From: Marseilla massiliensis
GTDB lineage: Bacteria > Bacteroidota > Bacteroidia > Bacteroidales > Bacteroidaceae
NCBI RefSeq assembly: GCF_016899855.1
Contig: NZ_JACJJG010000005.1
Location: 1-64,000 of the forward strand
Direction: 5' to 3'
Length of the DNA: 64,000 nucleotides
Shown here piece by piece: positions 3,154 through 39,026 of this stretch (position 1 is its first letter; the number at the start of each line of letters is the position of its first letter). The notes below the pieces were generated by a model, which ran no database searches, had not been told where the DNA came from, and saw only the letters and a list, made by a program, of their open reading frames with translations. A program made the position numbers and the translations under genes.

Positions 3154-4806
3154 TCACTGTTTCTTCAATGTAGGCAATTCTCCAGTGAGTTCGTAACGCC
3201 ACTCTGAACCTGCACTCTGCAAGGCGGTGTTCATGGCATCAACGGCGTTCTGCCAGGTAACGGTTGTGCCGTCCACCTTCGTGGCTCCGCCGTTGTCATT
3301 GTCGGGGAGGCCGCTCCAGTAGCAGGCGGTCACGATGCCGTAGTTGTATCCCACCACGCCGCCTACATTGAGGCTGCCGGAGACGCTGCCCGAGGAGGTG
3401 CAGCCGGTCACGGTGCCGTAGTAGTTGCGTCCCGCCACACCGCCGACATCGCTGTATCCAGAGACATCGCTCGTGTCGTAGCAGGCGGTCACGGTGCCGC
3501 CGTTCCATCCCACCACGCCGCCGACAGAGGAGTCACCGGAGACACTGCCCGAGACGGTGCAGCCGGTCATGGTGCCGCCGTTGTATCCCACCACGCCGCC
3601 GACACGGGAGGAGCCGGAGATGCTGCCCGAGGCGGTGCAGGCGGTTACGGTGCCCTTGTCGTTGGCTCCCACCACGCCGCCGACATACCAGTAGCCAGTC
3701 ACGCTCACATCTGTTAGCGTCACGTTCTGCACCTTGCCGCCGGAGCCGAGGTAGCCAATCAGCCCTACATAGTTTGTCCCTTCTTGGTTGACGGTCAGCC
3801 CCGTGATGGTCTTGCCGTTGCCGTCAAAGATGCCGGTGTATGCGTTATTGTAGTCTGCGCCTATCGGCGTCCACTCCATATCCGTCAGGTCGAGGTCTGT
3901 ATCAAGGGTGATGTTGATGTCGGTCGCTCCGCTGTTCACCAGGCTGGCGATGTTCTTCAGGCCCTCGGCGTTGTAGACCTCGTAGGTATTGCCGTCCTCC
4001 GATACGGTATATCCCTTGTCCTTGTTCAGCGTGATGTTGTAGAACTTGCCCGCTTCGGGGGTGATGGCGGCAGAGAGGTTGCGTTCCTCGGTGCCGTTTG
4101 CCTGCAGCTTGGTTATTGTGTAGCCGGGCACCACGTTCGCCTCCCAGCAGGTGATGGCGTTGCCGTTTTCGGTGTATTCGCACTTCTTCATCTCTATCCA
4201 GCCCTCTTGCGAGCCTTGCACTACCGTGCCCTTTTCATAAGTACACTGTGTGTAGGTATAGAGCTGGAGGCTCTGCACCTGGTCGAGTGCATCGTCCGAA
4301 GGCGTGACGCGCACCTTGGCCAGACGGTGGGCAAAGGTCAGCGTGACGGGTGTCTGGTAGTCTCCCGTGCCCGTACCGCCCAGCAGGTAGGCAAGACTTT
4401 GGCTTTGGTCGCCGAGGTCGAGGGTGCCGTCCGTGGCGGGGTACCAGGCGCTGACGGTGTGGGCCTCGTCCCTGTCGCTCCAATACAGGGGTGTTTCGGC
4501 TTCGACGGAGCCGTCGTCCCGCACGGTGTAGGTGCCGACCTCTCCCTCGCCGTCTATCTGCACGGCGAACCGGTCGCCCGCATCGAACGTGCTGCTTTTG
4601 CCGTCCCCGTTCTCGCTGACGCGCGTCTGCGGTGTGCCCCAGGGCTGCGCTTCGCCGCCCTCCACGCCGAGGGTGATGCGGGCTATCTCCAGCGGGTATT
4701 GTCCTTCGGGCAGACGGTCACCGTCCGCCAGTTCGTCCTTCGTGCAGGCAGCAAGGAGAAGGAGCAGGGCGACAAAGCCTATATGATATGAATATCTTAT
4801 ACTCAT
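3154..4806 (-). CDS. Fimbrillin-like lipoprotein with GLUG repeats
   Basis: A 550-residue surface lipoprotein. The signal peptide ends in a lipobox (LLLAAC, Cys21). It is followed by a fimbrillin-type N-terminal beta domain of about 250 residues (ITLGVEGG, RFAVQIDGEG, LTFAHRLAKV). The C-terminal half has about five GLUG-type repeats of the form VGGVVGxNxGTVTxC, each with a GSVSG-like turn, which should form a beta-solenoid. This is the last gene of the leftward fimbrial operon, 27 bp after the fimbrillin gene, and could be a tip or accessory pilin, or an adhesin. The frame is open to 4833, but the ATG at 4806 directly precedes the signal peptide and is chosen. GLUG repeats are known from bacterial adhesins and peptidases; the ligand here cannot be told from sequence. 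Confidence 0.75.
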   Translation of the reverse strand: MSIRYSYHIGFVALLLLLAACTKDELADGDRLPEGQYPLEIARITLGVEGGEAQPWGTPQTRVSENGDGKSSTFDAGDRFAVQIDGEGEVGTYTVRDDGSVEAETPLYWSDRDEAHTVSAWYPATDGTLDLGDQSQSLAYLLGGTGTGDYQTPVTLTFAHRLAKVRVTPSDDALDQVQSLQLYTYTQCTYEKGTVVQGSQEGWIEMKKCEYTENGNAITCWEANVVPGYTITKLQANGTEERNLSAAITPEAGKFYNITLNKDKGYTVSEDGNTYEVYNAEGLKNIASLVNSGATDINITLDTDLDLTDMEWTPIGADYNNAYTGIFDGNGKTITGLTVNQEGTNYVGLIGYLGSGGKVQNVTLTDVSVTGYWYVGGVVGANDKGTVTACTASGSISGSSRVGGVVGYNGGTMTGCTVSGSVSGDSSVGGVVGWNGGTVTACYDTSDVSGYSDVGGVAGRNYYGTVTGCTSSGSVSGSLNVGGVVGYNYGIVTACYWSGLPDNDNGGATKVDGTTVTWQNAVDAMNTALQSAGSEWRYELTGELPTLKKQ

Positions 4807-4833
4807 GTATTTCAGGTTTAATGGATAATTCAC

Positions 4834-5730
4834 TTAAAGGTCTGCGCTCACGTTGCCACCGGTTACCGGATTCCAATCGGTAATCTTGGCAGATTCGATG
4901 CTCAGGTCCTTGTTGCGGACGGTGACTGTCCAGGTGTAGTTGTTGCCGGCTTTCAGTGCGCCGTCGGGAATGGTGAGCGTGGCGGTGTAGGGCTGGCTGT
5001 TGTAGTACACGCTCAGTTCGATACTTGTCGTTGACTGCGGGAAGAGGATGACCGACGAGGTGAGTGCGCCGTCCAGTTCCATTGTAAGGTCGGCTGTCTG
5101 TGCGTTCGCATCCGTTTCTGCCGTGCCGGTGGTGGTGTCGAAGCTGCCCGTCAGCATCAGTCCGGAGAGCGTGTAGCCGGTGGGTTGGATGGTAGAGAAG
5201 TCCACACTGCTACCCTCCTTGAAAGTGAGCGTAATCTGGCTCATGCAGTGGTGGAAGGAACAGTCCGTGCCGCCTGCATCAGTGTCGTCGGTAAAATTCA
5301 CTTCAGGATTGTGCGTACTGGCAGTGGCACCGGTGGCATAGAGGAAGTCGATGGCGGGCTGGTTCTGCTGCGCCGTGGCATCGGTGGTGGCGGTCAGTGT
5401 CCCGCCGTCCGCATCGTAAGGATAGTAAGCGGAGAAGGTGGTCGGGTCGTCATCTTGGAAGAAGATAATGGTTCCTGTCGGTGTGAACTTCCCGCTTTCC
5501 CACCGGTAGGGCACGTTGGTGTAGCCGAAGCGGCTTTCGGAGATGCCTATCTTGTCACGTTCCGCCCAGGTGGTTCCGCTGGCGCGGGTAGCTACGGCGT
5601 CGGAAATTTCGGCATTAATCACTGCGGCCACGGGGCCGTCGTTCAGGTTCTCGTTGTCGTTGGTGCAGGCGACCGCACAGAGGGCGAGCACTGCGATTGG
5701 AAGTAATCTGGTATTCATCGTATCTTTCAT
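4834..5730 (-). CDS. Fimbrillin family lipoprotein
   Basis: A 298-residue lipoprotein with lipobox AVAC (Cys22) in the FimA/Mfa1-like fimbrillin fold family. Typical features are an early ATRASG segment with an arginine suited to Rgp-type maturation, WAERDKIGIS, TFSAYYPY, SFHHCMSQITLTFKEG, NYTWTVTVRNKDL and the closing ITDWNPVTGGNVSADL. Proteins ending in W-x-P/G-x-x-G-G are frequent in this family and act as pilus shaft or tip subunits. It lies 41 bp downstream of the DUF5119/Mfa2-like gene and 27 bp upstream of the GLUG gene, so it should be co-transcribed. A second Met four codons in (5718) is an equally possible start. Confidence 0.8.
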   Translation of the reverse strand: MKDTMNTRLLPIAVLALCAVACTNDNENLNDGPVAAVINAEISDAVATRASGTTWAERDKIGISESRFGYTNVPYRWESGKFTPTGTIIFFQDDDPTTFSAYYPYDADGGTLTATTDATAQQNQPAIDFLYATGATASTHNPEVNFTDDTDAGGTDCSFHHCMSQITLTFKEGSSVDFSTIQPTGYTLSGLMLTGSFDTTTGTAETDANAQTADLTMELDGALTSSVILFPQSTTSIELSVYYNSQPYTATLTIPDGALKAGNNYTWTVTVRNKDLSIESAKITDWNPVTGGNVSADL

Positions 5731-5771: not shown

Positions 5772-6644
5772 TTAGATTTCGGCATCCACTCCGCCGCTGT
5801 CCACTGTTTCCCATCCGGTGATTTCACCGGTGAAGCCCGCCTCGTCTGGGGTCTCGGCCAAGGTGCCGCCGAGGGTCAGGGGTGTGGTCTTGTCGTCGTT
5901 GAAGCCATCGAGGGCCGCCGTAAGGTCGCTATTGAGAGATGTAGGCTGCGGGTTGCCGTCCGTGTAGGTCAGTGTGGCGGTGAGCCGCTGCGAGTTGCCC
6001 GCAATGCCGAGCAGCCGGACGGTTGCCATCCACTTGCCCACATCGTCGCCCTCAGTTATCTTCGTGAAGTGCAGCTTCACCTCCGAGGGCGTGCCGTGAG
6101 TGCCCGTGGCGAAGTCAAGTGTCCCTGCCGCTCCGCTCAGCGTGCCCTCGATGCTCTCGATACGCTCTGCCGCATCGCCCGTCGGCTCGATGACGAGGGT
6201 CAGCTCACGCACCTGCTGATGCATGACGGCGGTCAGCGAGTAGTCGGTGTCGGCTTCTATCTCTACCTCCTGCACGGAAGTGAAGAGCCAGCCGGGAGTA
6301 TTCACGATGCAGCCGCCGTCCGCTGCGGCCACAGCAGCCGTCATGCCGCTTACCGTGATGCCGTCGGCAGGGTTATACACCGCAAGGGTATAACTGCCCG
6401 GATTGAAAAGATAGTCCGGCGAGTGGGTCGCACCGGTCTCCGTGCCTGTATAGCCGCCCATCGTCACTGTCCACTCCGCAGGGATGTCCACGCCCTCGCC
6501 GCGGTCGCTCCAGTCGGCGGTGACGGTGACCTTCCCTGTGTCGGGATGTGGCGTGTCATGCAGTTCGTCCTTGACGCAGCCGCCCAGCGTGAGCAGCAGC
6601 GCAAGGGAAAGAATCGTTGTCGTATATCTTGTTGTTGTCTTCAT
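5772..6644 (-). CDS. DUF5119 / FimB-Mfa2-like fimbrial lipoprotein
   Basis: A 290-residue lipoprotein with lipobox TLGGC (Cys23). After it come a short linker rich in Asp/His/Pro (KDELHDTPHPDTGKV) and an immunoglobulin-like beta domain containing FNPGSYTLAVYNPADGI. This is the pattern of DUF5119 proteins that accompany fimbrillins and are thought to anchor or regulate pilus length in the manner of Mfa2/FimB. It sits 15 bp after the DUF3575 gene and 41 bp before the fimbrillin gene, the usual order in Bacteroidales fimbrial operons. The family call is firm as a fimbrial lipoprotein; whether it is the anchor or a second pilin is inference. Confidence 0.7.
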   Translation of the reverse strand: MKTTTRYTTTILSLALLLTLGGCVKDELHDTPHPDTGKVTVTADWSDRGEGVDIPAEWTVTMGGYTGTETGATHSPDYLFNPGSYTLAVYNPADGITVSGMTAAVAAADGGCIVNTPGWLFTSVQEVEIEADTDYSLTAVMHQQVRELTLVIEPTGDAAERIESIEGTLSGAAGTLDFATGTHGTPSEVKLHFTKITEGDDVGKWMATVRLLGIAGNSQRLTATLTYTDGNPQPTSLNSDLTAALDGFNDDKTTPLTLGGTLAETPDEAGFTGEITGWETVDSGGVDAEI

Positions 6645-6659: not shown

Positions 6660-7793
6660 CTAAAACAGCTTCCACACTAAGGTAACACCCGCATTGACCG
6701 GGCCCCACCAGTTCTTCGTCTCCTTGCCGGCACGCACACGCACGCCGTCAATGACCTCATATTTCTCATAGTCCGCGTGCAGGCAGCCCACGGCCACATT
6801 GAAGTCCAGCGACAGGGCATCGCTGAGCCGTAGCTGGTAGCCGCCGGTGATGCCGCCTCCCATCAGGTCGCCCTGCTTGCCGGTTGCGGAAAGCTTGTAG
6901 TTGAACTCGCCAGCCTTGAACATCACGCCCAGATAGCCACGTTTCTCCTTGCCTGTATAGTAACGCACTCCCGGCATCACTTCCCACAGGGCGTACCGCC
7001 TGTCCTTGCCGTTCCACGACCACGATGTCCACGAACCGTTTACGAGGATTCCCCACGAGGGATGGACGCGCCACTCCAAACCCAAGTCGGGGGTGAGTGT
7101 AGCCCAACGCAGCAGATTGGCACGCAGGGCAAAATGGTAAGGGGCAGATGATGGGGATTCCAACGAAGTGGCAGTTATCTCTTGTGGCTGTTCTGCTTGC
7201 CTTGCTGCCTGTTCTTTGGCGGGTCTGTCAGCTTCTGCTTTTTCGGCAGCGTGGCGTTCTTCTTCAGCCTTGCGCCTTTCTTCAGCAGCTTTGCGTTCCT
7301 GTTCGGCTCGTTCGGCGGCAAGGCGTTCTTCCTCTGCCTTGCTCAGCCCTGCCGATTCAACGGCGGATGCTTCCGGTGCAGGTACTGTCAGACGGACGAT
7401 GACTAAATCACCGTCGGCAGCATGGCTTTTGGCGTGGGGCTTGGTGATGAAACATTCCTCTTTGATTCCGCCGCGCACAATGAGTTCCGATTTCACCCGG
7501 TTGGAACGGATGGCGGCCATCCGCAGGTTTTCCTTTTCGCTGTCAAGGGAATTGCAGTAGCCGTCCACATAGAGCGGAAGACTGCCGCCGAGTATGCTGT
7601 CCTTGTTCCGGCGCACGCATTCCAGCAGCCGGGCAAGTTCCCGGTCGTTGCCGTCAAGCGGCACATAGAACATATCCTTCTGTGGTACGAAACGGAAGGT
7701 GTAGGTGGTGTCCGCTTTCTGCCGCGTCGCAAACGTGGATACAGCAGTAAGCAGCGAGGCAATAATCAGTATTGTCTTGATTTTTATGCTCAT
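6660..7793 (-). CDS. DUF3575 outer-membrane protein with OmpA-like N-terminus
   Basis: A 377-residue exported protein and the first gene of the fimbrial operon. After a signal peptide (about residues 1-22) comes a region resembling an OmpA-type domain (LPLYVDGYCNSLDSEKENLRMAAIRSNRVKSELI). Then follows a charged Ala/Glu/Arg/Lys coiled-coil-like stretch of about 50 residues and a C-terminal DUF3575 domain (HFALRANLLRWATLTPDLGLEWRVHPSWGILVNG to the end) that should form a membrane beta structure. DUF3575 proteins commonly precede Mfa2/fimbrillin genes in Bacteroidales and are presumed to help pilus assembly or anchoring at the outer membrane. A promoter with near-consensus -33 and -7 boxes lies 43 bp upstream. 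Confidence 0.8.
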   Translation of the reverse strand: MSIKIKTILIIASLLTAVSTFATRQKADTTYTFRFVPQKDMFYVPLDGNDRELARLLECVRRNKDSILGGSLPLYVDGYCNSLDSEKENLRMAAIRSNRVKSELIVRGGIKEECFITKPHAKSHAADGDLVIVRLTVPAPEASAVESAGLSKAEEERLAAERAEQERKAAEERRKAEEERHAAEKAEADRPAKEQAARQAEQPQEITATSLESPSSAPYHFALRANLLRWATLTPDLGLEWRVHPSWGILVNGSWTSWSWNGKDRRYALWEVMPGVRYYTGKEKRGYLGVMFKAGEFNYKLSATGKQGDLMGGGITGGYQLRLSDALSLDFNVAVGCLHADYEKYEVIDGVRVRAGKETKNWWGPVNAGVTLVWKLF

Positions 7794-7866: not shown

Positions 7867-7903
7867 GTGTAAGTTGTTGAAAAAGAACGGCTTTTGTAGA
7901 TAC

Positions 7904-7979
7904 AGCAAAAAATTGTCGTTACGGCAATGGTACGTTTTGTTGTTAGAGCAAAAATTGTAGTTAGAGCAAAAACGTACGT
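7904..7979. promoter_or_regulatory. Direct repeats upstream of the fimbrial promoter
   Basis: Three copies of AGCAAAAA occur at 7904, 7947 and 7965. Two of them are extended to GTTAGAGCAAAAA (7942-7954 and 7960-7972, 18 bp period), and two share the continuation AATTGTnGTTA. They lie about 40-110 bp upstream of the fimbrial -33 box. Direct repeats at this distance are typical of AraC-family activator sites, and a membrane AraC regulator is encoded next door, so they are candidate operators. A TACGTTTT/AAAACGTA inverted pair (7931-7938, 7969-7976) overlaps them. Confidence 0.4.
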
Positions 7980-7990
7980 GAGTAAAATTA

Positions 7991-8102
7991 ACGTGAGTTC
8001 GGTATAAAAATAATACTTCTTTTTGAATAAAGAACTTACATTGTTTTGTAGTTCAAGCGGTCGGTGGGTATCTGTCACATCATTATTATACCGAACTCAC
8101 GT
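7991..8102. repeat. Inverted-repeat element A
   Basis: A 112 bp element bounded by perfect 17 bp inverted repeats (ACGTGAGTTCGGTATAA at 7991-8007 and its complement at 8086-8102). The interior is related to element B at 8505-8586. It encodes nothing. It could be a MITE-like mobile remnant or a recombinase target; no transposase or invertase is in the window. Confidence 0.7.
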
Positions 8103-8504: not shown

Positions 8505-8586
8505 AAGTGAGTACGGTATAAGAATGATACCCACTGACCGCTTGAAGTAGGATTATTATCACATCATCATTATACCGAACTCACGT
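8505..8586. repeat. Inverted-repeat element B
   Basis: An 82 bp element with 15 bp terminal inverted repeats (GTGAGTACGGTATAA, 8507-8521, and complement 8570-8584, one mismatch). Its left half matches element A in inverted orientation (including GACCGCTTGAA), and its right half matches A directly (ACATCATnATTATACCGAAC). Together with A it frames about 400 bp. Confidence 0.65.
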
Positions 8587-8658: not shown

Positions 8659-9789
8659 CTAAACTGCCGATGAGCTGTTTTTCCTCCATTTGGAGGGAGA
8701 GCAGCCTTCCTTGTCAGTGAAAATCTTGGTGAAATAGCTCAACGAAAGGAATCCCGACGCTTCCGATATTGCCGACACTGTAAGTTCGGGCTGTTGAACC
8801 AACATCCGCTTGGCGTATTCAATACGGAGTCCCGCAATCCATTCGCGGAAAGACATGTGGTAAGTTGACTTGATGTAGGCAGCCAGATAAGTGCGGTTAG
8901 TGTCGAGCGTGCCGGCCAGTTCCTCAATGTTAAGTCCCGGGCTGGTATATCCCTCCATGCCGACCCATGAGTCAAGTTTCTCTCCAATGCCAGCATAATA
9001 AGCCGGCGTTATCTGTGGCGGCTCTTTACGGGTCTGCCGATTTTTACCCCCCCCAATGGGCTCCGGCGCCATCTTTTCGAGAATGGTCTCCACCTGTTCG
9101 TAAAACAGAAGGTAGTTCATGTAAGACCAGTAGAGGTAGATGTAGAAGGGGATGGACGAAATAATCCACAGGAATACATACCTGTCAGGCAGGAATGTCA
9201 ACAATCCGCAGCTGATACCGTATATGACCGCCCACCAAGTGAAGACGGACATCCACTGTATGTAGGCGGCGATGTGCTCGGAATGGGTGTCGTCAAACAG
9301 TCGTACGGCACGGCGGTAGGTCATGATGAGCCTCCGTGCCAGGTGTATGCCGTAGGCGAGCAGCCACAGGGCCATGACGAACAGGCCCGCGTATTGCCAC
9401 GCTCCTTTTGGCATAAGCTCGAGTATAACCGCCGAAAGGGCAGTGAACGCCAGCCAATATATAATATGCCTCATAAAGCGTTGCCTCGTAAGGTACGTTC
9501 TGTCGAGCAAGGCTGTAAGTGCCGAACTGAACAGCCAGTAGGACAGGAAATACGTTGATAGGTTCATCAGGATGGCCACTCCCGGGCGGTAGAAGCGCAC
9601 TCCGAGAAACAAATGAACCGAATAGTTTGCCGAAAGCGCCATCAGCGCCACGCCCATGATACGTCGTGAGCGTACGTAGTTGGCGAAGATGGGCTTGTCG
9701 GGAGTCTTTGCGGCAAGGAAATAGGCGGCAAAGAAGAGCATCAGCACCAGTGCCGTGCCAAGTGAGAATTCATATATCGTATAATCCAT
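8659..9789 (-). CDS. Membrane-embedded AraC-family transcriptional regulator
   Basis: A 376-residue protein. Residues about 5-235 contain around seven hydrophobic segments (for example LGTALVLMLFFAAYFLA and FLWIISSIPFYIYLYW). After a polar linker (about 236-262) comes a C-terminal AraC helix-turn-helix pair (LNIEELAGTLDTNRTYLAAYI, VSAISEASGFLSLSYFTKIF, SPSKWRK). Such 7TM-AraC proteins often lie beside Bacteroidales surface-structure operons and are thought to pass a membrane signal to DNA. It is encoded on the same strand as the fimbrial operon and directly upstream of it, so it is the likely regulator. A G8 tract encodes Gly246-248 in the linker; a one-base change there would cut off the DNA-binding domain. 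Confidence 0.8.
   Translation of the reverse strand: MDYTIYEFSLGTALVLMLFFAAYFLAAKTPDKPIFANYVRSRRIMGVALMALSANYSVHLFLGVRFYRPGVAILMNLSTYFLSYWLFSSALTALLDRTYLTRQRFMRHIIYWLAFTALSAVILELMPKGAWQYAGLFVMALWLLAYGIHLARRLIMTYRRAVRLFDDTHSEHIAAYIQWMSVFTWWAVIYGISCGLLTFLPDRYVFLWIISSIPFYIYLYWSYMNYLLFYEQVETILEKMAPEPIGGGKNRQTRKEPPQITPAYYAGIGEKLDSWVGMEGYTSPGLNIEELAGTLDTNRTYLAAYIKSTYHMSFREWIAGLRIEYAKRMLVQQPELTVSAISEASGFLSLSYFTKIFTDKEGCSPSKWRKNSSSAV
9047..9054 (-). repeat. G8 homopolymer tract inside the AraC regulator gene
   Basis: Eight consecutive C on the plus strand (G8 on the coding strand) encode Gly246-248, at the junction of the membrane part and the DNA-binding part. The gene is in frame as sequenced. Homopolymers of this length are classical slipped-strand mispairing sites. 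Confidence 0.85.
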
Positions 9790-10180: not shown

Positions 10181-12388
10181 TTATTTCACTTCCTCGAGAT
10201 ACAATACCCGGCTGGCGTAATCGTTCAGCTTGTTGTAGTCTACGTCGTGTGTGTATGGAATCTCGAGTCCCGTGTCCATGAGGAACGCGCCGCTGAAGGT
10301 CTTTCCCTCGAATTTCAACGGGTTGTTGTCTATTCTGTCAAGCTCGTGTACGCGGTAAGTCTTTGTCCTGTCGAGGCCGGCCATCTTGACGCGTGGCAGG
10401 TGCTGGTTGACGAAAGTCTCGGTCTTCCACCAGTAGAACACGGCTTTGTCCTTAGCCTCTGATGTGTACATGAGCGACGCAACGCCCAGTCTGTCGTACG
10501 GAGATACGAGCCGGTAGATGTCGCCGAACTGCACGACGGGCCTGATTTGCTTGTACTCGGCAATGGCCTTGCGGCACAGCTCCTTCTCTTCGTCGGTCAT
10601 GTTCTTTGGCTGTATCTCCATGCCGAGCCGTCCGCTCATGGCCACGTCGATACGGAATTTGATAGGTATGGTGCGGAACGTCTGGTGGTTGGGCTTTGAG
10701 CTGATGTGCGACGCCATTGCTATTGCCGGGAAGAAGTATGACGTGCCCCACTGCATGTAAATGCGTTGCAGCGCGTCGGTGTTGTCGCTTACCCAGAACT
10801 CGTCGAAGTATGGCAGCACGCCCCAGTTTGCCCTGGCACCTCCACTGGCGCAAGCCTGTATTATGAGGTCGGGATACTTGGCCCTGATACGCTGGCATAC
10901 CTTCTCGAATCCGCGGTGGTAGTTGATGTACAGATGGCTCTGGTTGTCCTTTGTAAGGTATGTCGAGCCGTGGCTCTGTATGCCCATGTTGGCGTCCCAC
11001 TTGATGTATGCTATTTCGGGATATTTGGTCATGAGGTTGTCAACCACGCCGAACACGAAGTCTTGAACCTCGGGGTTGCCCAGGTCGAGCATTAGCTGTG
11101 TGCCCCCTCGGCCTGTCGCCGGCTGTCGGTTGGGCGCGTTTACAATCCACTCAGGGTGTTTCTCGTACAGTTCGCTCTTGGTGTTGGTAGCCTCGGGCTC
11201 AATCCAAATACCGAATTTCACGCCGTTTTTCTTTGCGTCGCGCAGCAGTCCCTCAATGCCTTCCGGCAGTTTCCGCTTGTCGACTGTCCAGTCGCCGAGC
11301 GCTGCGTTGTCGCTGTTGCGCTGGTATTTCGTGCCGAACCATCCGTCGTCCATGACGAACAGCTCTCCGCCCATCGATGCAATGTCGGCCATCATCTGGT
11401 CCATGCCCTCCTGGTTGATGTTGAAGTACACGCCCTCCCAGCTGTTGAGCAGTATCATTCGTTCCCTGTCGCCGTGCATGAGCCGGTATTTGCGTCCCCA
11501 TCGGTGGAAGTTGCGGCTGGCTCCGCTAAGTCCTTCACGGCTGTATGTCAGGGCGAGTGCAGGAGTGGCGAATGTCTCGCCCCGTTTCAGGTTGTACGTA
11601 GAGTTCTCCTCGTTGATACCCGCGAAGAAGTGGTGATACTCGCTTTCGTCGGTGTCAACACGGAGTTTGTAGTTGCCTCCGTAGCACAGCGCCGCGCCGA
11701 TTGTTGCTCCGGTGTTCTCCTGTGGGCGTCCGTCGAGCGAGAACATAACCTCGGCGTGCGCGGTGTGCGAGTTGCGGATGCCGTCCTTGTTCTTGATGAC
11801 TTTCATGCCCGGTTCGAGCGGTTCCTGCAATAATCTCCCTTCATTAGCCCATGCACCGTACAGCGACGACAGCCATACCGTGCCCCGGCGTATAGGCAGG
11901 TAGCCCGAGGCGAACTGGTTGAGCGCCACCTCTCCTTTCTCGTCATGGCGTATCTCTGTCCACGTCTCGATGATGTCCACGTCGTTGTATGCCCTGTAGC
12001 ACACGTCGACATAGAACGGATATACCTTGTCTTTCATGCTGACGCGTGTCACGGTGGCGTTGCCCTCCGTAGCTGTTGTAACATTCTCAACCGCCATTTG
12101 CAACGACATGTTGCCGTCGGCGTGCTTCACCGCCAGCGCGGTCTCGCCCTGGCAGTTCATGCCGTACACGGGATAGGCGGCGTATGTGGCGCCCCCGGCG
12201 TTGGAAAGTGCGGCAAGGTCGGCGGCCGACAGCCTGTCGCCATAGTACATTTGCTTAAGTTCGGCGCCCTCGGTGGCGTCGATTACCAATGAAGTATGTG
12301 GCGTGGCAACCTCTATTGGGGCCGCCGCCGCGCCGCTTATGAGTGCCAACGCACCCGCAAGCAAGCCAAGTCTTTTCATGAAGTCCAT
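10181..12388 (-). CDS. Alpha-galactosidase, GH36 family, exported
   Basis: A 735-residue glycoside hydrolase that should remove alpha-1,6-linked galactose from galactomannan or related oligosaccharides. It has a signal peptide (KRLGLLAGALALISGAAAA), an N-terminal beta-sandwich, and a TIM barrel with the GH36 landmarks: MDDGWFGTK, KFGIWIEPE, the nucleophile Asp in YIKWDANMG, CASGGAR, and the acid/base Asp in SDNTD. The frame extends to 12427, but the -7 element TAACTTTG at 12425-12432 excludes that start; ATG 12388 (or 12379) gives the signal peptide. It diverges from the AraC gene that precedes the mannan operon, so it is probably co-regulated with that operon, and it fits galactoglucomannan breakdown. 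Confidence 0.88.
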   Translation of the reverse strand: MDFMKRLGLLAGALALISGAAAAPIEVATPHTSLVIDATEGAELKQMYYGDRLSAADLAALSNAGGATYAAYPVYGMNCQGETALAVKHADGNMSLQMAVENVTTATEGNATVTRVSMKDKVYPFYVDVCYRAYNDVDIIETWTEIRHDEKGEVALNQFASGYLPIRRGTVWLSSLYGAWANEGRLLQEPLEPGMKVIKNKDGIRNSHTAHAEVMFSLDGRPQENTGATIGAALCYGGNYKLRVDTDESEYHHFFAGINEENSTYNLKRGETFATPALALTYSREGLSGASRNFHRWGRKYRLMHGDRERMILLNSWEGVYFNINQEGMDQMMADIASMGGELFVMDDGWFGTKYQRNSDNAALGDWTVDKRKLPEGIEGLLRDAKKNGVKFGIWIEPEATNTKSELYEKHPEWIVNAPNRQPATGRGGTQLMLDLGNPEVQDFVFGVVDNLMTKYPEIAYIKWDANMGIQSHGSTYLTKDNQSHLYINYHRGFEKVCQRIRAKYPDLIIQACASGGARANWGVLPYFDEFWVSDNTDALQRIYMQWGTSYFFPAIAMASHISSKPNHQTFRTIPIKFRIDVAMSGRLGMEIQPKNMTDEEKELCRKAIAEYKQIRPVVQFGDIYRLVSPYDRLGVASLMYTSEAKDKAVFYWWKTETFVNQHLPRVKMAGLDRTKTYRVHELDRIDNNPLKFEGKTFSGAFLMDTGLEIPYTHDVDYNKLNDYASRVLYLEEVK

Positions 12389-12424
12389 TTTTGTTCGTAT
12401 AGTTTTCAGATTATTTTCCGCTTG

Positions 12425-12432
12425 CAAAGTTA
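12425..12432 (-). promoter_or_regulatory. -7 element of the GH36 gene promoter
   Basis: The minus strand reads TAACTTTG, an exact TAnnTTTG match about 37 bp before the ATG at 12388. It decides against the longer ORF start at 12427. Confidence 0.55.
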
Positions 12433-12700
12433 GTGATTGTAATCCGAAAAGGGCGATATTATTTTGTCAGATATTGGTATAAAATCGCCATGTTCACGAT
12501 CTTCGGCATTTTATTGTGGCTGAGAGGTGCCGCCGGCGGCCGAGTCCCAATGCAGAAGTCGGCGGCCGCTCCACGACGCCGGCCGTGCCGCTGAGGGGAT
12601 TATCGTGGTATGTAACGCGCCGTGATGACTTTTGGGACACTATATATGCATATTTGTATCGTTTTTGTCAAAAAAGTATGACAATTCAAAAAAATAGCAT

Positions 12701-12708
12701 TATATTTG
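12701..12708 (+). promoter_or_regulatory. -7 element of the mannan-locus AraC gene
   Basis: TATATTTG matches TAnnTTTG, 38 bp upstream of the ATG at 12746. The gap 12433-12700 between the divergent promoters also holds a GC-rich palindrome (GCCGCCGGCGGC, 12530-12541) but no gene. Confidence 0.5.
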
Positions 12709-12745
12709 CGTATATTTTTTAATTGACCTTAAATACCAACGTATC

Positions 12746-13639
12746 ATGACCAAGAATAATTCCGAGCATTATATTCTCAGGGAAATTACGCCGCTGTCGG
12801 AGAAGGACTGTTTCTACATCGTTGACCGTCACAAAAAGGAATTCACTTATCCCATACACTGTCATGATGAGTACGAGCTGAACTTCGTTGAGCACGGCAG
12901 GGGGCTTCAGCGCATAGTGGGCGACTCGGTCGAGACCGTTGACGACTATGACCTTGTGCTCATTACCACGCCCGAGCTGGAGCATGTATGGGAGCAGGGC
13001 ACTTGTGACTCGGAGGACATACGCGAGATAACGATACAGTTCTCGCCGCATTTTTTTGACAGCCTTGCCACTACCAACCAGTTCGACCGCGTCAAGACAA
13101 TGCTTGACAAGGCACGCAACGGCCTGAGTTTTCCGATGGAAGCCATCATGAAGATATACTTCCTGCTCGACACCCTGCCCGAGACAAAGGGGTTCTATGC
13201 CGTAACCCAGTTTCTTACGCTGCTCTACGAGCTGTCGTTCTTTACCGACAAGGCGCACAGCCTGTCGACGTCGTCGTTCGCCAAGGTGAACGTACAGGCC
13301 AACAGCCGGCGTGTGCTGAAGATACAGCAGTACATCAGCGACCATTATCAGGACGAGGTGCACCTGTCGAAACTGGCCGACATGGTGGGCATGTCGCCGG
13401 CGGCTTTCAGCCGTTTCTTCAAGCAGCGCACTGGCAAGAAGCTGTCAGACTATATCATAGACATACGCCTCGGCCATGCAGCCCGTATGCTGGTGGATAC
13501 GACAATGTCGGTAGCCGAGATATGTTATGACTGCGGTTTCAATAACCTGTCCAACTTCAACCGTATCTTCAAGCGCAAGAAAAACTGCTCGCCTACGGAG
13601 TTCCGCGAGACGTATTTCAAGAAGAAAATCATTATTTAG
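12746..13639 (+). CDS. AraC-family regulator of the mannan locus
   Basis: A 297-residue cytoplasmic regulator. The N-terminal cupin-like sensor domain shows FTYPIHCHDEYELNFVEHGRG, and the C-terminal AraC domain (about residues 190-290) has two helix-turn-helix units (VHLSKLADMVGMSPAAFSRFF and VAEICYDCGFNNLSNFNRIF, closing CSPTEFRETY). It sits between the divergent alpha-galactosidase and the mannanase operon, so it probably senses a mannan-derived sugar and activates both sides; that role is inferred from position. An intrinsic terminator follows 10 bp after the stop, so the gene is transcribed alone. Confidence 0.85.
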   Translation: MTKNNSEHYILREITPLSEKDCFYIVDRHKKEFTYPIHCHDEYELNFVEHGRGLQRIVGDSVETVDDYDLVLITTPELEHVWEQGTCDSEDIREITIQFSPHFFDSLATTNQFDRVKTMLDKARNGLSFPMEAIMKIYFLLDTLPETKGFYAVTQFLTLLYELSFFTDKAHSLSTSSFAKVNVQANSRRVLKIQQYISDHYQDEVHLSKLADMVGMSPAAFSRFFKQRTGKKLSDYIIDIRLGHAARMLVDTTMSVAEICYDCGFNNLSNFNRIFKRKKNCSPTEFRETYFKKKIII

Positions 13640-13649
13640 TTTCTTTACG

Positions 13650-13685
13650 GCGTGCCTTCAATATGCGAAGGCACGCTTATTTTTA
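13650..13685 (+). terminator. Intrinsic terminator after the AraC gene
   Basis: A 10 bp stem (GCGTGCCTTC at 13650-13659, complement at 13667-13676) with a 7 nt loop is followed by TTATTTTTA. Confidence 0.75.
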
Positions 13686-14100
13686 TCCAGACGTCAGTTG
13701 TAGGGTGTTGCTTTCCAGACCATTTATAACTTGTTGCGTACTTCTATAGTAGCCAGATTTGCGACCGCCTGGCTACGATGAGGGGATAAGATATAAAGAA
13801 AAAGGTTTATGATGTCATGATTGTTTGTACCTGTTTATGATGAAAATGCACGATGAATGATGTGTGTCCGTATTATATTTGTTTCCTGTTGGCGAAATGT
13901 CAGCCATTATTTGCTGTACCGCCTGATGTGTAATGTTTATGCGGCATTTGGCTTGCATGTTGATTTGCGTTGACGTCTCTATACGGCGATATTCTAAAAT
14001 AAAATACTGACGGACGTGAATATGGCCTGAAATGTGTGCATAATTAAATACTTGATAACCAGTAGTTTAATCCTTGTTTGCGTATGAATGTGCAGTTTTG

Positions 14101-14264
14101 CGACGCAAAATAGCCCATGAAAAGCCGTGTTTCGGTCTTCAAAATGCGGCTTTTGGGTGCGGTAAAGACGGTCTTTCAAGTTGTAAAAGGCCGTCTTTTG
14201 TGTCATGAAAGACCGTTTTTAGGGTAGCTAAAGGCCGTTTATTGTCATGCTAATGACCGTATAT
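14101..14264. repeat. 22-23 bp palindromic-unit array, copy 2
   Basis: About seven consecutive units with cores such as AAAGACGGTCTTT, AAAAGGCCGTCTTTT, AAAGACCGTTTTT and AAAGGCCGTTTATT, spaced 22-23 bp. It is the longest of the nine arrays. The surrounding 933 bp gap (13640-14572) has no gene. Besides this array it contains a GTAGCCAG/CTGGCTAC hairpin (13749-13776) and the operon promoter. Confidence 0.8.
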
Positions 14265-14422
14265 GGCATTGCCGACGTTCTATTTCGGCTGTTCAGACGG
14301 ACATTTTTGTTTTGACATTTTGTTACTTCGGGCATAACGTCAAGAATCAGGTGATTGTGCCGGTCGAAAAGTAAGAAATTATATGTGCGGGCGAAAAAGT
14401 ATTATGATGTGGTAAAATTGTA

Positions 14423-14454
14423 TTTGTCAAAGATAATATAAGAATGTAACTTTG
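14423..14454 (+). promoter_or_regulatory. Promoter of the mannan operon
   Basis: TTTG (14423-14426), a 20 bp spacer and TAACTTTG (14447-14454) form a full consensus Bacteroidetes promoter. The leader before the GH26 ATG is about 110 nt, long enough to hold regulation, although no known riboswitch fold was recognised. Confidence 0.7.
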
Positions 14455-14572
14455 CAACCGAAAATATGTTGAAAACTTGACCTTGACAGTCAAATCTGGT
14501 ATTGACATAATCTAAAGCGGCCCGCGGAGAGGTACGCATTTAAGTAGAAAACCAATAATTTAAGCAATTATT

Positions 14573-15661
14573 ATGAACCTTGTATCAGCAATAACTTTAG
14601 GGGCATGTATGCTGGTTGCCACTGCATGCCAGGCACAGAAGCAGACGAGAACGCCTGAGGCCGTAGCCATGCTCAAGACTCTTGAGAATATGCCGCGTGA
14701 CGGTAAGTTCATGTTCGGACACCATGACGACACGATGTACGGCATAGGCTGGGTGGGTGATGAAGGCCGCAGCGACATCAAGAGCGTGTGCGGCGAATAT
14801 CCCGCTGTGATGTCTTTCGACCTTGGCGACATTGAGCTCGGGCACGACGTCAACCTTGACAGCGTGCCGTTCGACAAAATCAGGCGCGAAGCCGTGGCTC
14901 AATACCGTCGCGGCGGCATGGTTACGATGAGCTGGCACGCCAACAACCCACTGACGGGAAAGAACGCGTGGGACGTGTCCGACTCGTCCGTGGTGCGCTC
15001 GGTGCTGCCCGGCGGGGCCAATCATGAGAAGTTCTTGGGCTGGCTCGACCGTGTGGCAGACTACCTGAACTCGATAAAGACCGCCGACGGCGTTAAGGTG
15101 CCGGTGCTCTTCCGCCCGTGGCACGAGCATACGGGCAGCTGGTTCTGGTGGGGACAGGCGCTCTGTTCTACCGAAGAGTACAAGGCCCTGTGGCAGCTTA
15201 CGTACGACCGTCTGGCGGCCAAGGGCACCGACCAGTTGCTTTGGGCGTACTCGCCCGGCATAGAGCCGAAGGACACTGCCGAGTATCTTGAGCGTTATCC
15301 CGGCGACTCGAAGATAGACCTTATCGGCGCTGACGCTTACCAGTATGGCACGAATGCCGAATATATGGCTACGCTCGACCGCATTCTCGGCATCATGGAG
15401 CAGGTAAGCCGTGAGCACGGCAAGGCCATGGCGCTGACCGAGGCGGGCCATGAGTCGATACCCGACAGCACGTGGTGGACGCAGACTTTGCTGCCCGTAA
15501 TAGCAAAATATCCCATAAGCTACGTGCTCGTATGGCGTAATGCGCACAACAAGCCCGGACATTACTTTGCCCCGTATCCCGGCGAACCGTCGGCAAAAGA
15601 CTTTGTCAAGTTCCATGCCGACAGGCGGACAGTGTTCGTAAAGGCCGGAGGCGAAAAGTAA
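14573..15661 (+). CDS. Beta-mannanase, GH26 family, exported
   Basis: A 362-residue endo- or mannobiose-releasing beta-1,4-mannanase. The hydrophobic leader ends in VATAC (Cys19), which may be a lipidation site or a plain signal peptide. The GH26 barrel shows MFGHHDD, VTMSWHANNP, the acid/base Glu185 in FRPWHEHTGSWFWWG, IDLIGADAYQ and the nucleophile Glu290 in ALTEAGHE. It is the first gene of an operon followed by a GH130 phosphorylase, a symporter and an epimerase, the same order as the B. fragilis mannobiose pathway, so mannobiose is the likely main product. A full consensus promoter lies 120 bp upstream. Confidence 0.9.
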   Translation: MNLVSAITLGACMLVATACQAQKQTRTPEAVAMLKTLENMPRDGKFMFGHHDDTMYGIGWVGDEGRSDIKSVCGEYPAVMSFDLGDIELGHDVNLDSVPFDKIRREAVAQYRRGGMVTMSWHANNPLTGKNAWDVSDSSVVRSVLPGGANHEKFLGWLDRVADYLNSIKTADGVKVPVLFRPWHEHTGSWFWWGQALCSTEEYKALWQLTYDRLAAKGTDQLLWAYSPGIEPKDTAEYLERYPGDSKIDLIGADAYQYGTNAEYMATLDRILGIMEQVSREHGKAMALTEAGHESIPDSTWWTQTLLPVIAKYPISYVLVWRNAHNKPGHYFAPYPGEPSAKDFVKFHADRRTVFVKAGGEK

Positions 15662-15741
15662 AAAGGTAAAAAAGTAAGAAGGTAAATATATAAGGTGAGA
15701 GATTGAGGAAGAAATAATAACCAAAAATAAAATAAGCAACA

Positions 15742-16914
15742 ATGAGTCTGTTTGATGAAAAAGTAAAAGCCCTGTTCGCAGAACATGAGGCCCTGATTAC
15801 CCGCAAGAACGAGCCCGTAAGCCAGTCAAACGGTATTTACACAAGATATAAATACCCCATATTGACTGCTGCCCATACGCCGGTGTTCTGGCGTTATGAC
15901 CTTGACGAGAAATCCAATCCTTACCTGATGGAGCGCATCGGCATGAACGCAACGATGAATTCGGGCGCCATCAAGTGGAACGGTAAGTACGTGCTCGTTG
16001 TACGTGTTGAGGGTGCCGACCGCAAGTCGTTCTTCGCCGTGGCCGAGAGTCCCAACGGTGTGGACAACTTCCGCTTCTGGGATTATCCCGTAACAATGCC
16101 CGACGACGTGATTCCAGCCACCAATATCTACGACATGCGCATTACCGCACATGAGGACGGATGGATTTACGGAGTGTTCTGCGCCGAGCGTCATGACGAC
16201 AACGCGCCCGCCGGCGACCTGTCGGCGGCAACGGCAACGGCTGCCATCGCCCGCACGAAAGACCTCAAGACGTGGTACCGACTGCCTGACCTCAAGACAA
16301 AAAGCCAGCAGCGCAACGTTGTGCTTCACCCCGAGTTTGTTGACGGGAAGTACGCGTTCTACACCCGCCCGCAGGATGGATTCATCGACACCGGCAGCGG
16401 TGGTGGCATCGGTTGGGCGCTCGTTGACGACATAACCCACGCCGAGATAACCGACGAGAAAATCATAGACCTGCGCTATTACCATACCATCAAGGAGGTG
16501 AAGAACGGCGAAGGCCCCCATCCTATAAAGACTCCGAAGGGCTGGCTGCACCTTGCCCACGGCGTAAGAGGGTGTGCGGCAGGCTTGCGTTACGTGCTCT
16601 ACATGTATATGACTGCCCTTGACGACCCGACGAGAGTTATCGCCGCGCCCGGCGGTTACTTCATGGCGCCGGAGGGAGAAGAGCGTATCGGCGACGTGTC
16701 GAACGTGCTGTTTGCAAACGGTTGGATAGCCGACGAGGACGGCATGGTGTACATCTATTATGCGTCTTCCGACACCCGCATGCACGTAGCGGTGTCAACA
16801 ATCGACAAACTCGTCGACTATTGCATGAACACTCCCGAAGACGGACTGACCACAACGGCGTCGGTTGAAACATTGAAGAAGCTGATTGACCGTAATATGA
16901 AGATAATGAAATAA
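15742..16914 (+). CDS. 4-O-beta-D-mannosyl-D-glucose phosphorylase, GH130
   Basis: A 390-residue cytoplasmic enzyme without a signal peptide. It should split beta-1,4-mannosylglucose with phosphate into alpha-mannose-1-phosphate and glucose. The GH130 five-bladed propeller pattern is clear ([49 protein letters not shown]). Asp131 in [13 protein letters not shown] sits at the position of the proton donor of the characterised Bacteroides enzyme, which also has about this length. The gene follows GH26 by 80 bp and precedes the transporter by 27 bp. Its substrate is made by the epimerase encoded two genes downstream. Confidence 0.92.
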
Positions 16915-16941
16915 CATGGAATATAGTCTAACTATGGAAAA

Positions 16942-18345
16942 ATGATAAAACTAAGGGAAAAGATAGGTTACGGCTTCGGAGACATGGCGTCGTCCATGTT
17001 CTGGAAACTCTTTGGAGCCTACCTCATGATATTTTATACAGACGTGTTCGGTTTGCCTGCCGCCATGGTAGGAACGATGTTCCTCGTAACCCGAATATGG
17101 GACTCCGTGTTCGACCCTGTCGTAGGAATCGTTGCGGACCGGACCAACAGCCGCTGGGGTAAGTTCCGTCCTTATATACTATGTCTTGCCGTGCCGTTCG
17201 GTATTGTTGGCGCGCTTACGTTCTACACCCCGTCGTTCGGCCTTACCGGAAAGCTGGTTTACGCTTACGCCACTTACTCGATTATGATGATGGTTTATTC
17301 AGCCATCAACGTGCCTTACGCGTCATTGCTTGGCGTGATGAGCCCTAATCCGAGCGAACGCAACACGCTGTCTACCTTCCGTATGACGTTTGCCTACATC
17401 GGCAGTTTTATCGCGTTGCTGCTCTTTATGCCAATGGCCAACGCCTTCAGCGGGCACAGTAAGGACATAGCTGACCAACAGACGGGATGGTTTATGGCTG
17501 CAGCTACCATCGCCGTGCTGTGTGTTATCCTCTTCCTGGGCTGCTTCTCTTGGACAAGGGAGCGTGTAAAGCCCATCAACGAGCAGAAAACGTCACTCAA
17601 GACGGACATCAAAGACCTGCTGCATAACCGTCCGTGGTGTATTCTTTTCGTAGCCGGCGTGGCGGCGTTGGTGTTCAACTCTATCCGTGACGGTGCCGCC
17701 GTGTACTACTTCAAGTACTATATTGTCGAGGATAATTTCCATACTGTCAATCTGTTTGGCGTCTCGTTCGTGCTCAGCGGACTGTTTCTCGCCGTTGGCC
17801 AGGCAGCCAATATCATCGGAGTTGTGCTCGCCGCGCCTGTCAGCAACAAGATAGGAAAGAAGCGTACGTTTGCTCTTGCCATGCTGTTGACCGCCGTTCT
17901 AAGCGTGATCTTCTTCTGGTTTGACAAGGACGACATTGTTCTTATCTTCGTGTTCCAGTGCCTTATCAGCATGTGTGCCGGCAGTATATTCCCGCTGTTG
18001 TGGTCGATGTACGCTGATTGCGCCGATTATTCCGAGCTGAACACTGGCAACCGTGCCACCGGACTGATATTCTCGGCCTCGTCGATGAGCCAGAAATTCG
18101 GCTGGGCTATAGGCACCGCGCTCACCGGTTGGCTGCTTTCCTATTTCGGATTCCACGCCAATGCCGCGCAGAGTCCCGAGACAATACACGGCATAAAGCT
18201 GTTCCTGAGCTGGCTGCCGGCAGCCGCTTCGGTTGTGTCGGTTGTCTTCATCCTATGTTATCCGTTAGGAGAACAGCAGGTATCTAAAATCATAGATAAG
18301 TTAAACATTAAGCGTTCACAATCTAATGAAGGAAAAAATAAATAA
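16942..18345 (+). CDS. GPH/MFS-family sugar:cation symporter
   Basis: A 467-residue inner-membrane protein with about 12 hydrophobic segments and the MelB-like glycoside-pentoside-hexuronide signature near the N-terminus (KIGYGFGDMASSMFW, TRIWDSVFDPVVGIVADRTNSRWGKFRPYI). By position in the operon it should import mannobiose or mannosylglucose from the periplasm. The orthologous gene in B. fragilis occupies the same place between the phosphorylase and epimerase genes. Its stop overlaps the epimerase start by 20 bp, which points to translational coupling. Substrate assignment is by context only. Confidence 0.85.
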   Translation: MIKLREKIGYGFGDMASSMFWKLFGAYLMIFYTDVFGLPAAMVGTMFLVTRIWDSVFDPVVGIVADRTNSRWGKFRPYILCLAVPFGIVGALTFYTPSFGLTGKLVYAYATYSIMMMVYSAINVPYASLLGVMSPNPSERNTLSTFRMTFAYIGSFIALLLFMPMANAFSGHSKDIADQQTGWFMAAATIAVLCVILFLGCFSWTRERVKPINEQKTSLKTDIKDLLHNRPWCILFVAGVAALVFNSIRDGAAVYYFKYYIVEDNFHTVNLFGVSFVLSGLFLAVGQAANIIGVVLAAPVSNKIGKKRTFALAMLLTAVLSVIFFWFDKDDIVLIFVFQCLISMCAGSIFPLLWSMYADCADYSELNTGNRATGLIFSASSMSQKFGWAIGTALTGWLLSYFGFHANAAQSPETIHGIKLFLSWLPAAASVVSVVFILCYPLGEQQVSKIIDKLNIKRSQSNEGKNK

Positions 18346-19519
18346 GCTTTGCATGGAGGTTAGGGCCGAACTCGAGAACGACATCCTGCCGTTCTGGAGC
18401 GGTAAGATGGCCGACAACGTGCGTGGAGGATTCTACGGGCGCATTGACGGCAACGACGTTCTCGACACCGAGGCGCCCAAGGGAGCGATACTTAATGGCC
18501 GCATATTATGGACTTTCTCGGCCGCTTACCGCCTGTTGGGCAAGCAGGAGTATCTCGAGACGGCCACGAGGGCCAAGCGTTACCTGATAGACAAGTTCTA
18601 TGACAAGGATTTCGGGGGAGTATATTGGTCGTTGAATGCCGACGGCAGTCCGCTCGACACAAAGAAACAGATATACGCTTTGGGCTTCGCGATATACGGA
18701 TTGAGCGAATATGCCCGTGCCACCGGCGACGATGAATCCCTTGACTATGCCGTGAAACTGTTTGAGACGATAGAGGAATACAGTTTCGACAAGGAGAGAA
18801 ACGGATATATCGAGGCCTTCATGCGCGACTGGCAGCCCATAGCCGACATGCGCCTTAGCGACAAGGACGAGAACATGAGCAAGACGATGAACACCCACCT
18901 GCACATCCTTGAGCCTTACGCCAACCTCTACCGTGTGTGGAAAGACCCGCGTCTGGAGCGGCAGTTGAGGAATCTTATCGAGCTGTTTATCAAGAAGATA
19001 CTGAACGGAACGACGTATCATCTCGACCTGTTCTTTGACGACGACTGGACGGTTAAGGACGAAATAATATCCTACGGGCATGACATCGAGGCGTCATGGC
19101 TCATCCACGAGGCAGCGCTTGTGCTTGGTGATAAAGCCCTTTTGAAGGAAGTTGAGCACATAATAAGGCATATCGCCATGGCTGCGGACGAAGGACTGAA
19201 CCCTGACGGCAGCATGATTTACGAGACTTTTGTAGCCAAGGACAAGACCGACCGTGAACTCCACTGGTGGGTTCAGGCCGAAAACGTAGTAGGTCACTTC
19301 AACCTTTACCAGCATTTCGGTGACGTGAATGCTCTTGACACGGCCATTGACTGCTGGCTGTTTATCAAGGACAAGCTCGTTGACCATGAGCACGGGGAGT
19401 GGCATTGGAGCATAATGCCCGACGGAACGGTGAACCGCAAGGACGACAAGGCCGGCTTCTGGAAGTGTCCTTACCACAACGGAAGGATGTGCCTGGAGAT
19501 AATCGAGAGAACGAGATAA
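18326..19519 (+). CDS. Mannobiose/cellobiose 2-epimerase (AGE family)
   Basis: A 397-residue (alpha/alpha)6-barrel epimerase. It should convert beta-1,4-mannobiose into 4-O-beta-mannosylglucose, the substrate of the GH130 enzyme encoded two genes upstream; cellobiose could also be used. AGE-family landmarks are NGRILWTFSAAYR, the histidines in NTHLHILEPYANLYRVW (191, 193), SYGHDIEASWLIHEAA (His252), HWWVQAENVVG and GEWHWSIMPDG (His360). The start overlaps the transporter stop by 20 bp; an internal Met at residue 10 is an alternative. There is no signal peptide, so it acts in the cytoplasm. Confidence 0.9.
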   Translation: MKEKINKLCMEVRAELENDILPFWSGKMADNVRGGFYGRIDGNDVLDTEAPKGAILNGRILWTFSAAYRLLGKQEYLETATRAKRYLIDKFYDKDFGGVYWSLNADGSPLDTKKQIYALGFAIYGLSEYARATGDDESLDYAVKLFETIEEYSFDKERNGYIEAFMRDWQPIADMRLSDKDENMSKTMNTHLHILEPYANLYRVWKDPRLERQLRNLIELFIKKILNGTTYHLDLFFDDDWTVKDEIISYGHDIEASWLIHEAALVLGDKALLKEVEHIIRHIAMAADEGLNPDGSMIYETFVAKDKTDRELHWWVQAENVVGHFNLYQHFGDVNALDTAIDCWLFIKDKLVDHEHGEWHWSIMPDGTVNRKDDKAGFWKCPYHNGRMCLEIIERTR

Positions 19520-19542
19520 TTCATAATTGTATCAAAGTGTAT

Positions 19543-20976: not shown

Positions 20977-21051
20977 TGCTTGTGCCGTTTGCATGCGATG
21001 ATTTTACACAATAGGTGTTTTTTGATGTTTATATAAGGATTGTTTTTTTGC

Positions 21052-21156
21052 TTGAGACGGTCTTTCGCCTTGTGAAAGGCCGTCTTTTAGCTTGTAAAAG
21101 GCCACCTTTTGGCGTGCAAAATACGGTCTTTTGGGAAACAAAAGGTGGCCTTTTGC
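21052..21156. repeat. 22-23 bp palindromic-unit array, copy 3
   Basis: Five units at 22-23 bp spacing. Unit 3 (AAAAGGCCACCTTTT) and unit 5 (AAAAGGTGGCCTTTT) carry a changed core in compensating form, giving a perfect 16 bp inverted repeat with a unit between. The array lies in the 284 bp gap between the esterase and GH3 genes. Confidence 0.8.
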
Positions 21157-21260
21157 TAACGCATTGAATATCAGGTGTTTGCAAAACGACAGCCAAACCC
21201 TTTCCAGGCCGTGCCAAACGGCCGTTAATCGAGTCATGAAAACATTATAAACCAACAATT

Positions 21261-39018: not shown

Positions 39019-39026
39019 GGGGGGGG
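39019..39026 (+). repeat. G8 tract upstream of the putative small RNA promoter
   Basis: Eight consecutive G, ending 18 bp before the -7 element TAATTTTG. The tract covers the place where the -33 box would be. Confidence 0.8.

Follow-up and report, generated by a model that had tools for sequence, protein, structure and literature searches.

A G8 tract as a probable contingency switch in a membrane-anchored AraC regulator beside a type V fimbrial operon

A run of eight Gs in the gene of a membrane-anchored AraC-type regulator is probably a simple-sequence contingency switch for the adjacent type V fimbrial operon. It is most likely one of many such switches in this genome, although neither switching within a population nor an effect on fimbriae has been shown. 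Phase variation had been proposed in a sequence-only reading of the window (the whole 64,000-nucleotide stretch of DNA that was analysed), and it is now supported by an out-of-frame G9 in the nearest relative found, by G-runs elsewhere in the regulator family and by a genome-wide excess of G8 to G11 tracts. These observations, together with the surface-gene contexts of the tracts, are our reasons for placing the G8 in a larger set of switches.

Results

The tract is read on the minus strand as GGG GGG GGT and encodes Gly246-248 of a 376-residue open reading frame, as first noticed from the letters alone (9047-9054 within 8659-9789; Table 1). Membership of the AraC family is supported by an HTH_18 score of 68.8 bits against a Pfam cut-off of 33.6, and at E up to 0.001 the PDB yields three matches, all of them AraC-type DNA-binding domains. 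An AlphaFold2 model, computed from a 22-sequence alignment and with a mean pLDDT of 76, has helices at residues 3-26, 33-62, 69-95, 102-125, 130-166, 171-197 and 202-238, followed by a linker and a C-terminal helical domain, and the N-terminal part is predicted to be a seven-helix membrane domain. When relatives of the regulator are aligned, the tract-encoded glycines occupy gapped linker columns. The sequence-only reading had placed the tract between a membrane sensor and the AraC domain, and this position is borne out by the linker at residues 237-260 (pLDDT <50) and the HTH_18 match at residues 291-370.

Table 1 Positions of the features in the window, with the evidence for each.
Feature	Coordinates	Strand	Evidence
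Mfa-like protein with GLUG motifs, possible tip subunit (inferred)	3154-4833	-	PF13149 2.9e-09, PF07581 2.3e-17
Mfa-like fimbrillin	4834-5730	-	PF13149 7.9e-50
Mfa2-type anchor fimbrillin	5772-6644	-	PF08842 1.5e-08
DUF3575 protein, first gene of the fimbrial operon	6660-7793	-	PF12099 6e-35
Candidate operator, four direct repeats TTTGCTSTAWCNACAA	7894-7970	-	Exact at 7955-7970, 7937-7952 and 7894-7909; 7913-7928 with 2 mismatches
MITE-like element, inverted ends GTGAGTTCGGTATAA	7993-8100		Ends at 7993-8007 and 8086-8100
Second MITE-like element, same GTGAGTTCGGTATAA ends, mismatch in one	8507-8584		Ends at 8507-8521 and 8570-8584
Membrane AraC-type regulator, 376 aa	8659-9789	-	HTH_18 5.1e-19; seven long helices at the N-terminus of the AlphaFold2 model
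AraC DNA-binding domain, residues 291-370	8680-8919	-	HTH_18 match; best PDB matches are AraC-type DNA-binding domains
Disordered linker, residues 237-260	9010-9081	-	pLDDT <50; gap-rich alignment columns
TAAA directly 3' of the G8 tract	9043-9046	-	Flank common to most long G tracts of the genome
G8 tract	9047-9054	-	Codons 246-248; G9 in orthologue L012
Second G8 tract	39019-39026	+	Promoter-like region, 18 nt before TAATTTTG box

Past the tract, the other two frames read into a TAA immediately in one case and into a stop after 11 codons in the other, so the gain or loss of a single G would remove the DNA-binding domain and leave a membrane protein without it, as had been claimed. A contingency locus would be expected to carry a slippable homopolymer in a reading frame or promoter, to toggle frame with a change of length, to belong to a class of long tracts over-represented against the run-length decay of the genome, and to differ in length among close relatives at the same site. 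The first expectation is met by the G8 within the regulator frame and the fourth by G8 here against G9 in the orthologue L012. The second is met at the level of frame only, without expression data, the G9 allele being truncated; the third holds for the genome, although the window alone does not go beyond its shuffles. An immediate stop in another frame just past the run would also yield two products if RNA polymerase or the ribosome slipped there in a programmed manner, giving full and truncated regulator from one allele. Across species, however, it is the DNA length itself that differs, and we regard programmed slippage as very improbable.

The regulator was also said to stand upstream of a fimbrial operon, and the same-strand genes downstream of it (DUF3575, Mfa2-type anchor, Mfa-like fimbrillin and Mfa-like/GLUG) agree with this. 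Two of the families, PF13149 (170.6 bits) and PF08842 (35.1 bits), score above cut-off within one operon and identify it as a type V (Mfa/FimA) fimbrial operon. The stop codon of the regulator and the first ATG of the operon (7793) are 865 nt apart. Judged from gene order, the pairing of this regulator with a type V (Mfa) operon recurs in other Bacteroidales. A DUF3575 homologue lies downstream of the regulator in 17 of 34 loci examined and another fimbrial homologue in 2 more; no fimbrial homologue was found there at E 1e-4 in the remaining 15. In some of these 15 the contig ends soon past the regulator, while L040, L041, L047 and L056 extend for several kb downstream, still without a fimbrial match at that threshold. 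Positions 10181-23603, next to the fimbrial locus, may be a mannan-type utilisation locus: they encode glycoside hydrolases (GH36, GH26, GH130 and GH3), a sugar transporter (MFS_2) and another AraC regulator.

Four direct repeats of TTTGCTSTAWCNACAA precede the operon and are a candidate for the regulator's operator, binding being inferred from sequence. The window contains 4 matches where 0.48 are expected, and none of 100 shuffles reaches as many. The core pattern is present in 21 of 264 loci, each one containing the regulator, although the 21 include several copies of a single place; its absence elsewhere is weak evidence, because many of the other loci are short. The spacing between repeats and operon start is almost unchanged in L119, L039 and L042, differing by no more than 4 nt; similar arrays, built from a different sequence, occur in remoter relatives. 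The same intergenic gap holds both MITE-like elements. An invertible promoter between regulator and operon was considered and set aside without being excluded, the inverted repeats here being the ends of a multicopy element: GTGAGTTCGGTATAA-type ends occur at 44 genome sites with at most one mismatch, while the reversed-sequence control gives 0. About a dozen of these 44 MITE or IS-like element ends are close to a contig start.

Taken together, these features suggest how a switch could operate. Replication slippage at the G8 would add or remove one G, slippage in living populations being inferred. G8, or lengths differing from it by three, would give the full regulator, comprising the seven-helix membrane domain, the flexible linker and the AraC domain, and this protein would act at the direct repeats. 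Other lengths would give the membrane domain alone, and for this reason the operon would lose its regulator. Fimbriae would then be off if the regulator is an activator, a role that we infer in preference to that of a repressor.

Counting the own genome, matches to the regulator at E 1e-40 occur in 21 of 398 genus, 21 of 399 family and 6 of 393 order genomes, a distribution that on these matches is patchy. The closest relative found, L012 in genome G053, is 83% identical over residues 1-250 and carries G9 at the same codon as the G8, with a TAA at codon 249. In another frame the DNA-binding half of L012 can still be read through and is 77% identical, so the frame break is recent. The alternative is a neutral run in a glycine-rich linker, with the sister's G9 reflecting ordinary pseudogene decay or an assembly error and no switching at all. 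The G9 allele does rest on one assembly, a draft of about 50 contigs that may be a MAG. The orthologues L050, L065 and L066, and also L080, have frame breaks or stops away from G-runs, so gene decay or assembly error is at work in the family as well. The open DNA-binding half of L012 nevertheless speaks against this alternative, as do runs at other codons of the family and the run lengths of whole genomes.

Runs of at least 6 Gs or Cs are found in only 5 of 71 regulator genes, so the tract is not a family trait, and that idea was rejected. Besides G8 in the window regulator and G9 in L012, both at codon 246, these are G9 at codon 45 of L055 and G8 at codon 127 of L059, each in frame, and G7 at codon 45 of L063, out of frame. 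The nearly identical gene L057 has no run at the site of the L063 G7. Mapped onto the regulator tree, the run requires four changes (gains or losses), with the window regulator and L012 as sisters (support 100/94). The 71 genes (78,039 nt) contain 178 G/C runs of length 4, 42 of 5, 0 of 6, 1 of 7, 2 of 8 and 2 of 9, and their flanks (524,371 nt) contain 31 of 6, 4 of 7 and 1 of 8. With the window regulator and its sister removed, there are 2 runs of at least 8 against 0.14 expected (Poisson P 0.009; Fisher on kb 0.045) and 3 of at least 7 against 0.72 (P 0.037; Fisher 0.07), a modest enrichment. The count includes five added order-level genes and the partial genes L064 and L101. It leaves out loci with a best tblastn score below 180 bits (distant AraC proteins) and the near-copies L067, L071, L081, L082, L083, L084 and L086; L068 and L069 are fragments without a match.

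Within the window, the two G8 tracts are not beyond chance, as the neutral account would have it: dinucleotide shuffles give a mean of 1.0, and at least 2 in 23 of 100. Runs of length 4 number 137 in the window and runs of length 5 number 20; lengths 6 and 7 are absent, and length 8 occurs twice. Geometric decay at the ratio of 20 runs of 5 to 137 of 4 predicts about 7 G7 and 1.3 runs of at least 8 for the genome, against 1 G7 and 17 longer runs found in the own genome (G000: 51 G6, 1 G7, 12 G8, 4 G9 and 1 G11). Among other genomes of the genus, run lengths also fail to decay in G053 (4 G7, 8 G8, 6 G9) and in G006 (13 G7, 15 G8, 10 G9, 2 G10). In G024 they decay (15 G7, 5 G8). Five of the 8 runs of at least 7 in G084 (3 G7, 3 G8, 2 G9) and 4 of the 9 in G102 (5 G7, 1 G8, 2 G10, 1 G11) reach 8 or more. 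All runs were examined in G006, G024, G102 and G084, and 17 of 29 in G273, 4 of 22 in G164 and 4 of 24 in G016. Weighing the absence of decay in three genomes with the family runs and the open half of L012, we consider a neutral run unlikely.

Long runs share a flank. In G000, 13 of 17 long runs have TAA directly behind them, and in G053 8 of 14 do; for runs of 4-6, within the sequence portions examined, the figures are 11 of 310 and 3 of 263. At 44 tracts of at least 8 in three genomes (G273 included only in part), T occupies position +1 in 38, A position +2 in 37 and +3 in 33, and A or T position +4 in 41, while T is found at -2 in 30 and C at -1 in 22. Across 299 genus genomes G8TAAA is counted 287 times, or 277 times when the own genome is excluded, and the reversed pattern 80 times; 124 genomes contain G8TAAA, 15 of them in at least 5 copies. 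Some genomes have no clear excess over the reversed pattern (G125, 12 vs 7; G290, 1 vs 4), and the flank is little seen at runs of at least 8 in G102 (0/4), G084 (0/5) and G024 (1/5). Long G-runs alone do not mark one system, because G102 and G084 possess them without the flank. A G16 tract with the TAAA flank was seen at L138, in another genus genome.

Such a flank could mean that G8-TAAA serves as the binding motif of a regulator or as a promoter element, in which case the copy within the araC gene would be incidental and length change secondary. The skew towards TAA after long runs and the G8TAAA excess fit this account, and so do the promoter-type tracts. At 39019 and at the orthologous promoter regions L172 and L260 of two other genomes the tract is retained as G8, G8 and G9, and the 18-nt distance to a TAnnTTTG box, which we take to be the Bacteroides -7 box, is kept. 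The same flank is nonetheless found at coding tracts, tract length varies between 8 and 16, as would not be expected of a fixed binding site, and genes change frame exactly at tracts. A bound motif thus remains a still more doubtful reading than a neutral run. Where the tract is coding, one of the frames is closed at once by the TAA; this does not account for the TAA at promoter sites. Other orthologous sites differ in length (L115, G9; L166, G8) or do not (L004, L167 and L259, all G8).

By our reading of predicted genes, 12 of the 17 long tracts of G000 are in or before surface-type genes, and five (L001, L112, L113, L116 and L118) have no clear surface-type target. At L108 two GT4 glycosyltransferase genes and one for a hexapeptide acyltransferase contain tracts, and at L109 a tract lies 3 nt before another hexapeptide acyltransferase gene. 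The L110 tract is at a frame break between an upstream piece with a Gly_transf_sug domain and a downstream piece without a Pfam match, and the L111 tract falls near the N-terminus of an RGI-lyase-domain protein, probably within its signal peptide. Further tracts precede a SusC-type receptor gene (L117), an outer-membrane barrel gene (L114) and two probable lipoprotein genes without a Pfam match, one at L004 and one downstream of the 39019 tract (39581-41320). The L115/L203 tract (L203 is G000:C278:1-7000) precedes a DUF3575-DUF3868-fimbrillin operon. This is a second fimbrial operon of the own genome, with G9 upstream; the sister genome has G8 at that site. Within L108 (4775-5345), one GT4 gene has a G9 close to its end, and beyond the tract an orphan C-terminal half of a GT4 protein is encoded in another frame; this arrangement may reflect a deletion or a fusion involving two glycosyltransferase genes.

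A polysaccharide-type locus of G006 (contig C107, 6000-40000; L205 and L206) has ten runs of at least 7 in 30 kb, neighboured by glycosyltransferase, acyltransferase and ATP-grasp protein genes. One Acyl_transf_3 gene there is split at a G9, with profile positions 3-67 before the tract and 120-321 after it; at another G9 a frame opens, and an MBOAT piece follows from profile position 80.

Discussion

Beyond the single tract, part of the Prevotella group may use poly-G switches genome-wide, in control of fimbriae, polysaccharides and outer-membrane receptors, with a common TC-Gn-TAAA/T context at coding and promoter sites and one process that recognises or makes it. We put this forward tentatively, as a possibility rather than an expectation. 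A common process, for example a factor that binds or destabilises the run, would take the place of tracts that arose independently.

In the portions of two papers available to us, Bacteroides phase variation is presented as a matter of DNA inversion (PMC11868660, PMC12632263), and the latter, as far as those portions go, reports invertible capsule promoters and a phase-variable fimbrial locus in Bacteroidales. The present case is like these in order and in concerning capsules and fimbriae; capsule variation there proceeds by recombinase inversion, whereas the inverted repeats beside the regulator here are the ends of multicopy MITE-like elements. No poly-G slippage switch in Bacteroidales was found by title or abstract start among the matches listed, which cover open-licence literature only. 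Nearest among those matches is a remark, in the accessible part of PMC3090145, on an acetyltransferase-related gene of B. fragilis with a frameshift in a run of 4 Cs, for which slippage is offered as a possibility. If a set of slippage switches exists, tools restricted to inversions overlook some of the group's surface variation. If the switch within the regulator is real, the fimbrial on/off state could be read from the length of one tract in metagenomes.

Poly-G and poly-C contingency loci are familiar from Campylobacter, Neisseria and Helicobacter, where genes are turned on or off by frame or by promoter spacing. As in those genera, tracts of at least 8 Gs are found here in reading frames and promoters of surface genes; the differences are a Prevotella-group host, the common flank TC-Gn-TAAA, and one tract within a fimbrial regulator. 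The promoter repeat switch of meningococcal NadA, as given in the available text of PMC2791445, provides a second parallel. Its repeat length alters the spacing of promoter elements, as we propose for promoter tracts here, but repeat and regulator are different and the repeat is not intragenic. The regulator switch of Bordetella pertussis is said to lie in a poly-C run of bvgS. As in that frameshift switch in a two-component regulator (Stibitz 1989, as relayed by the accessible part of PMC11868660), a slip in a regulator gene would alter surface factors; the Bordetella protein is a sensor kinase, whereas here sensor and DNA-binding domain are predicted to be joined in one AraC protein whose likely target is one adjacent operon.
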